Of a DNA stretch of 34,619 nucleotides, positions 5,817 to 6,761 are shown one piece after another. The stretch comes from Frankia torreyi (GTDB lineage: Bacteria > Actinomycetota > Actinomycetes > Frankiales > Frankiaceae), in contig NZ_JYFN01000014.1 in NCBI RefSeq assembly GCF_000948395.1, forward strand, positions 100,725 through 135,343, read 5' to 3'. A program made the translations under genes and the position numbers. Every line of letters begins with the position of its first letter. Positions within the stretch are counted from its first letter, which is position 1. A model generated the notes under the pieces. That model worked only from the letters and a program-made list of their open reading frames with translations, had not been told where the DNA came from and did no database searches.

Positions 5817-6047
5817 CTAGAGACGCGTCGCGGTCCGGACGAGGCCGGCGACGGCTCTGGAGCGGCTGTGCGGTGGCCACGCGATGACCGTCGTAACCGT
5901 CGGCGCGTCCAGCACCGGCACGGCGGCGAGGTCGCCGCGCAGGTGGGCTCGGCACGAGTCCGGCAGGATCGCGCACGCGCGACCGAGCGCGATGAGCTGC
6001 AGCAACTGCGTGTGGTCGCGAACCGGCGGACCGGGGCCGTCCGGGTA
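5817..6047 (-). pseudogene. LysR-family regulator, C-terminal remnant
   Basis: Read on the minus strand from about 6047 down to the stop at 5817, the translation gives about 76 residues that look like the end of a LysR co-inducer domain. It begins PDGPGPPVRDHTQLL, continues through ALGRACAILPDSCRAHL and ends VAGLVRTATRL. The DNA-binding helix-turn-helix and most of the sensor domain (about three quarters of a normal 300-residue LysR) are missing. The frame stays open to an ATG at 6161, but those extra residues only shadow the SDR remnant on the other strand. It cannot bind DNA and is almost certainly dead. The break coincides with the break in the SDR remnant. Confidence 0.78.
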
Positions 6048-6282
6048 CGCGCCGTCGAAGACGTTCCTCAACGCCGTCACCGTCCAGTACGCCGAGGAAC
6101 TGCACGACACGAACATCCTGATCAACGCGGCGTGCCCCGGATTCACCGCGACCGGCCTCAACGGCTTCCGCGGCGTCCGCAGCCCGGAGCAGGGCGCGGC
6201 GATCGCGATCCGGCTCGCGACCCTGCCCGACGACGGCCCGACCGGCGGTTTCTTCGACGACGCGGGGGTGGTGCCCTGGTGA
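6043..6282 (+). pseudogene. Short-chain dehydrogenase/reductase, C-terminal remnant
   Basis: From the catalytic Tyr-x-x-x-Lys onward (GYAPSKTFLN, Tyr at 6046-6048) the frame reads as a normal SDR C-terminus. It includes INAACPGFTATGLNG and the typical end DGPTGGFFDDAGVVPW. The cofactor-binding TGxxxGIG half, about 150 residues, is gone. The frame is open upstream to an ATG at 5884, but that part is antisense to the LysR remnant and has no SDR character. In actinobacteria this SDR type is often found divergent from a LysR gene. A single deletion removing both 5' ends and the shared promoter would give exactly this picture. Confidence 0.8.
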
Positions 6283-6320: not shown

Positions 6321-6725
6321 TCACGGATTACCGGTCCGGGCAAGCTCGGGGCGATGCCGGTTGATCCGCTGCCGCCGGCGGGCGAGGAGGACATCCGCGA
6401 GGGCGTCCGCGCGTTCCATGTCGTCGAGGGTGGCCCGGGATCGTCCCTCCACCTCGAGGATGGCGGCGAGGAGCTCCGCGGACAGTCTCATCCGCGCCGC
6501 CACCCGCGCCACGCTCGGCGGGAGGCCGCAGGACGCCCGGTCCGACAGCGGGCGGCCATCGCCGGGACCGACCACCTGCGACGGGATCCGACCGTCCGGC
6601 GTGACGCGACCCGTAGGACCGGCATGATCCGTAGGGGCGGCGTGACCCCTGGGCGCGAGGTGGCTCTTGGGCGCGATGCGACCCTCGGGGGCGAGGCGGG
6701 GCCGGACTCCGAAGAGATCGAACAT
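6321..6725 (-). CDS. Small hypothetical protein behind a LexA-like box
   Basis: The 134-residue frame begins MFDLFGVRPRLAPEG. It continues through a low-complexity proline/alanine/histidine stretch (about residues 12-50) and ends in a helical, charged part (RMRLSAELLAAILEVEGRSRATL, about 75-97, then an Arg-rich tail). I chose the ATG at 6725 because the promoter at 6733-6761 and the LexA-like box at 6718-6733 sit right on it; there is no ribosome site, so the mRNA would be leaderless. SOS-controlled HNH/DUF222 proteins of actinobacteria often start with MF inside such a box, so this may be the stump of one. I cannot see DUF222 or HNH motifs. The product could also be non-functional. Confidence 0.45.
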   Translation of the reverse strand: MFDLFGVRPRLAPEGRIAPKSHLAPRGHAAPTDHAGPTGRVTPDGRIPSQVVGPGDGRPLSDRASCGLPPSVARVAARMRLSAELLAAILEVEGRSRATLDDMERADALADVLLARRRQRINRHRPELARTGNP

Positions 6726-6733
6726 ACATTCGA
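6718..6733 (-). promoter_or_regulatory. LexA/SOS-box-like palindrome overlapping a start codon
   Basis: The 16 bases read TCGAACATACATTCGA on the plus strand. Compared with the actinobacterial LexA site TCGAAC-N4-GTTCGA, 11 of 12 fixed positions match, and the central four bases also fit the R-N-R-Y pattern. The ATG of the small minus-strand gene lies inside the box. Bound LexA would cover the transcription and translation start together. Confidence 0.6.
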
Positions 6734-6761
6734 TTCTGGCGAAAGCGGATCGTCCTGTCAA
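6733..6761 (-). promoter_or_regulatory. Sigma-70-type promoter for the small SOS-box gene
   Basis: On the minus strand a perfect -35 TTGACA (6761-6756) is followed after exactly 17 bases by CAGAAT (6738-6733), a four-of-six match to the -10 consensus. The expected start point falls inside the LexA-like box just downstream. Such good matches are unusual in DNA this GC-rich. Confidence 0.6.

Follow-up and report, generated by a model that had tools for sequence, protein, structure and literature searches.

The window analysed here, a stretch of 34,619 nucleotides of Frankia torreyi DNA, contains a frame of 134 residues whose start codon lies inside a predicted LexA box, and the question is whether this frame is a damaged SOS gene or an intact gene for a small DNA-damage product. 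Frankia is a nitrogen-fixing symbiont of alders and other actinorhizal plants. In the established SOS response, DNA damage acts through RecA to cause the cleavage of LexA and thereby derepression. Many of the SOS effectors that were added by particular bacterial lineages are still unknown. Our results suggest that the frame is likely to be an intact, LexA-repressed and leaderless gene that is inducible by DNA damage and encodes a small helical protein specific to its lineage; the protein would act via the contacts of a hairpin. The regulation is of a known kind, and the protein is previously undescribed.

The sequence-only reading described a TTGACA-N17-CAGAAT promoter leading into a LexA-like box with an ATG inside, and this arrangement was confirmed on the minus strand (Table 1). 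The spacer between the two hexamers is GGACGATCCGCTTTCGC, and the last T of CAGAAT is also the first T of the box TCGAATGTATGTTCGA, which has a mismatch to TCGAAC-N4-GTTCGA at one of the 12 fixed positions and spans the -10 end, the start codon and the site where transcription is expected to begin. It is the sole match with one mismatch or fewer in the whole window. Dinucleotide shuffles of the window (n = 100) gave a mean of 0.07 matches, with one in 7 of the 100; for the box taken alone, a chance origin is only moderately unlikely. As this level is not overwhelming, the case rests on conservation. Two ATG codons lie inside the box, one at 6729 opening a frame of 133 residues (MYV..., P0001) and one at 6725 opening the frame of 134 residues (MFD..., P0002). 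The start at 6729 was rejected, since conservation points to the MFD frame as the real one. The -10-like hexamer counts against our preferred explanation, because CAGAAT, which is mostly CAGGAT in the relatives, is missing the first T of TANNNT.

Table 1. Position of the promoter, box, gene and neighbouring gene ends in the window.
Feature	Position	Strand	Remarks
-35 hexamer TTGACA	6756..6761	-	Identical in 23/23 distinct SOS-type relatives
-10-like hexamer CAGAAT (family consensus CANNAT)	6733..6738	-	17-base spacer from the -35; 7 bases short of the ATG
Predicted LexA box TCGAATGTATGTTCGA	6718..6733	-	11/12 of TCGAAC-N4-GTTCGA; kept in 23/23 relatives
Predicted transcription start, A of ATG (leaderless)	6725	-	Inferred from the -10/ATG spacing and M. 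tuberculosis start-site data (PMC3898074)
134-residue gene P0002 (MFDLFGVRPR...), stop codon included	6321..6725	-	Member of a Frankiaceae-only family
Residues 1-67	6525..6725	-	Variable, proline/arginine-rich, predicted disordered; MFD encoded by the LexA half-site
Residues 68-121, conserved domain LPPSVARVAARMRLSAELLAAILEVEGRSRATLDDMERADALADVLLARRRQRI	6363..6524	-	Predicted two-helix hairpin (helices 70-93 and 100-124)
LysR substrate-binding domain end	5820-6161	-	E 8.5e-6; start missing
Short-chain dehydrogenase end	6040-6279	+	E 3.7e-6; start missing

When 13 genomes of the window's genus were searched with the 134-residue protein, matches were found in 11. The SOS type, with the same promoter, box, start codon and fixed arrangement, is present in 24 of 27 genomes from three genera: 10/13 in the window's genus (including one truncated at the end of its contig), and 6/6 and 8/8 in two further genera, in which the named records belong to Parafrankia and Pseudofrankia, along with some Frankia-labelled strains. 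Its absence from three Frankia genomes indicates that the gene is not indispensable in the genus, and it was not seen in eight genomes, some incomplete, from the other four genera of the family. All 23 distinct members carry TTGACA, a spacer of 17 (16 members) or 18 bases (7 members), CANNAT and the box, which varies at inner bases only and is TCGAATGTATGTTCGA itself in 16 of them; one member starts with GTG instead of ATG. The mean information was 0.37 bits per base at -100 to -50, 1.04 in the promoter and 1.86 in the box. A strict -35/-10/box pattern had 20 hits in 34 genomes, all in Frankiaceae, and the reversed pattern had none in the same 34 genomes.

The conserved domain has a pN/pS of 0.14, indicating that the 134-residue frame is under purifying selection; roughly half of the members have stops in the remaining two reading frames. 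The named relatives are from Frankiaceae without exception. Likewise, when 393 genomes from the class and 296 from the phylum were searched by profile, the family was found only in Frankiaceae; four partial hits of the class search outside Frankiaceae (E 0.004-0.007), about the chance expectation for 393 genomes, were rejected. No relatives were detected among IMG/VR viral contigs. In the neighbourhood of the SOS-type gene, nothing is widely conserved except the gene itself and frames overlapping it. There are thus no conserved neighbours to name a pathway, which counts against our preferred explanation. Beside the gene in the window are two gene ends whose starts are missing, one from a LysR substrate-binding domain and the other comprising the last 80 residues of a short-chain dehydrogenase with YxxxK (Table 1).

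In M. tuberculosis, 26% of the genes with a primary start site are leaderless, and the centre of the -10 element precedes the start by 7-12 bases (PMC3898074). In the Frankia gene, the -10-like hexamer is centred about 10 bases ahead of the A in the ATG, there is no room for a leader, and in 23/23 distinct members the hexamer ends exactly seven bases before the start codon. These spacings, together with the M. tuberculosis rule, suggest that the mRNA is probably leaderless. The gene resembles the leaderless genes of M. tuberculosis in a -10 placed so that transcription would begin at the start codon (PMC3898074), and differs from them in having a repressor box over those same bases, the start being a predicted one.

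The genome (7.62 Mb in 153 contigs) encodes LexA (PF01726, E 9e-29), and the box TCGAACGGGAGTTCGT is found upstream of its DNA-binding domain. The genome scan that the sequence-only reading proposed revealed eight TCGAAYN4RTTCGA boxes in 7.6 Mb, and none with the reversed control. Two of the eight start DUF222/HNH genes in the same manner, with CAAAAT or CATAAT lying seven bases ahead of an ATG within the box and a product that begins with MFD, while at least one falls within an unrelated coding frame; other DUF222 genes of the genome have boxes with one mismatch. ChIP-seq of Streptomyces LexA gave the motif tCGAAC-N4-GNNCGa (PMC9380542). The Frankia gene agrees with actinobacterial LexA-repressed SOS genes in having a box of this type over the promoter (PMC9380542) and a LexA in the genome; it is different in that it stands outside the usual repair set, its protein has no known relatives and its LexA control is predicted. 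The conservation, the LexA of the genome and the absence of reversed hits all argue for the SOS promoter over the start codon that was first proposed.

It is suggested that LexA on the box would cover the -10 end, the transcription start and the start codon together, block the polymerase directly and keep the gene silent. Upon DNA damage, the RecA filament would stimulate LexA cleavage and free the promoter; RNA polymerase would then start at the A of the ATG, and the leaderless mRNA would give a basic protein of about 134 residues. The steps up to this small basic protein are drawn from established SOS biology and the conserved sites, and we regard the combination of LexA binding, damage induction and a leaderless start as highly probable. 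Expression is almost certainly damage-induced in Frankia and its close kin, as far as promoter conservation can tell. The promoter would be a clean example from nature of several roles overlapping in one 16-base stretch: repressor site, -10 end, transcription start, start codon and coding sequence. Thus, the predicted control of the promoter is well supported by conservation, and from here on we infer the action of the protein.

The product had been called low-complexity, which holds for residues 1-67 and not for residues 68-121, which are highly conserved; the protein was misjudged because its first half is of low complexity. The N-terminal part varies in length and sequence and is abundant in Pro, Arg, Ala, Gly, Ser, His and Thr, and the SOS-type members have 106-140 aa in total. 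Residues 68-121 are near-invariant (LPPSVARVAARxRLSAELLAAILxVDGRSRATLDDMERADALADxLLARRRQR). The whole-protein and domain-only models agree on the predicted hairpin, with a pLDDT of at least 90 across almost the whole domain in the two runs, and both the N-terminus and the domain have a net positive charge. The suggestion of a small DNA-damage product is upheld as far as sequence can show.

No match for P0002 was found in Pfam, NCBIfam, PHROGs or PADLOC. An Xre-like HTH appeared weakly in 2 of 18 members (best E 0.0055), was absent in seven scanned members and conflicts with the predicted hairpin, and it was rejected. The profile search of PDB sequences gave just chance-level hits, among them short matches to designed helix bundles. 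In fold searches of PDB and viral structures with the full model and the domain alone, no hit fell below E 0.001 (Z ≤6.2); pieces of histone folds and AAA lids recurred, not above the noise for helical hairpins. No study of the SOS response in Frankia dealing with this gene came up in our literature searches. Several members, from both paralogs, have small residues at the C-terminus, such as LRWSA (L032, L034, L042), RLSA (L048, L061) and YRASA (L023, L024), with the endings WSA, LSA and ASA, which recalls protease recognition tails.

Most of the genomes have a second gene with the same domain, a MALLHL-like start and no LexA box. Its upstream region is different yet conserved, with GTCAAG, a few bases and TTG, followed by a TATCAC-like hexamer close to the ATG. 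The GTCAAG...TTG element precedes the ATG of the MALLHL/MDLR start by tens of bases (loci L019, L022, L044, L057 and L060), is retained from Frankia to Protofrankia, and did not match a known operator. The neighbourhood of this paralog is conserved in many genomes, with an acyltransferase gene upstream. The paralog reaches Protofrankia, and a divergent relative occurs in a 3-Mb Frankiaceae genome. As it is present in more genera, it may be older than the SOS type; the SOS and non-SOS types cluster in a domain tree, which with 55 columns does not resolve a single origin or their relative age.

The only conserved part of the SOS-type protein is the hairpin, which the box-free paralog has as well; on the simplest view, the two would therefore form mixed dimers or compete for a partner. 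The hairpin might act as a homodimer, as the partner of the paralog or by competing for the paralog's partner, and DNA damage would then alter whatever the paralog does in undamaged cells. Protein-protein contact through the model-predicted hairpin is our tentative proposal for the mode of action. The gene is a compact, conserved and easily tested candidate effector, for which the box-free paralog offers a built-in comparison.

The best surviving alternative is that the product is an SOS cell-division inhibitor like SulA, YneA, DivS or ChiZ, which would delay septation until repair is complete. Small proteins with mostly no relation to one another serve as SOS division inhibitors in different bacteria (PMC3989709; PMC6051672), and the Frankia product shares with those four its small size, single-gene and lineage-specific nature and SOS-type regulation. 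However, no sequence relation to them or to any Pfam family was found, and the box-free paralog would be left unexplained. Many such inhibitors are membrane-bound (PMC6051672), whereas on a simple hydropathy scale the best 19-residue mean of the SOS-type members is 1.39, with no membrane-like stretch. This speaks against an inhibitor of the membrane-bound YneA type, and would not speak against a cytosolic SulA-like action. On balance, we consider a division inhibitor rather unlikely.

It is less probable still that the product is a damage-induced nucleoid or DNA-binding protein, in which the hairpin is a dimer core and the basic N-terminus touches DNA. The positive charge of both parts agrees with such a role, and histone-fold pieces are many of the best Foldseek hits of the domain. 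However, these hits have E values of at least 1 and Z of at most about 6, the level that helical hairpins reach by chance, and the PDB contains a disproportionate number of histones. Histone models did not hit any member at E 10, and the profile search of PDB sequences retrieved no histone chain. The histone fold has three helices with a long middle one, and for this domain only a two-helix hairpin is predicted. A bolder version would have a Frankiaceae pair of small histone-fold-like hairpin proteins, one with its own promoter and one damage-induced, and during repair their exchange would repackage the nucleoid or direct a common partner elsewhere; we find this quite improbable.

It was also supposed at first that the gene could be a damaged SOS gene, perhaps of the DUF222/HNH type. 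As a decayed remnant of such a gene, it would keep only the promoter and first codons. The DUF222/HNH (13E12-type) genes of the same genome and genus do have the same design, TTGAC(A/G)-N17-CANNAT-CGAA with the start codon in the LexA box and an MFD/VFD start, so the likeness noticed earlier is real for the promoter and reflects shared regulation only. The M. tuberculosis genes with RecA-dependent mitomycin C induction include five for putative HNH endonucleases (PMC8151990). On the other hand, the DUF222/HNH genes encode about 440 aa, compared with SOS-type proteins that are far shorter and have neither a DUF222 nor an HNH domain. DUF222 (PF02720) did not match P0002, nor 18 members at E 10, and in the profile-profile comparison of DUF222 N-termini with the SOS-type family, which the sequence-only reading had proposed, only MFD(L) aligned. 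The shared MFD, VFD or VFE starts arise because the half-site GTTCGA reads (AT)G-TTC-GA, and the box-over-start design explains the Met-Phe-Asp start of unrelated proteins in these genomes. Of the 20 strict hits, 13 start this gene and 7 start DUF222/HNH genes; the strict promoter thus marks two unrelated proteins. Since the frame is intact and under purifying selection in three genera, and the same domain is present in the box-free paralog, a decayed remnant is hardly credible. The possibility that box and promoter are chance matches before an unused frame in a GC-rich genome, for which only the shuffled windows speak, is negligible: with all elements and spacings kept across genera and no hits of the reversed pattern, the box, judged by this comparison, is not a chance match.

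Some other boxes were observed in the genome. Perfect LexA boxes (L006 1501 and L008 1501) accompany a gene with the product MAVVSRPV... and a small frame that begins with MDTRRTSFPLIQG, adjoining a trpC-like gene; the searches gave no identification for either product. A third box-over-start promoter, TTGACA-N17-CATAAT-CGATCACATGTTCGA, was found on the plus strand (L126 1501-1665; G000:C64:60879 onward). It is divergent from a DUF222/HNH gene about 200 bases away that has the same kind of promoter, and the frame that follows it, which may be a remnant, has only 42 residues (MFELLEGVSCRSS...).
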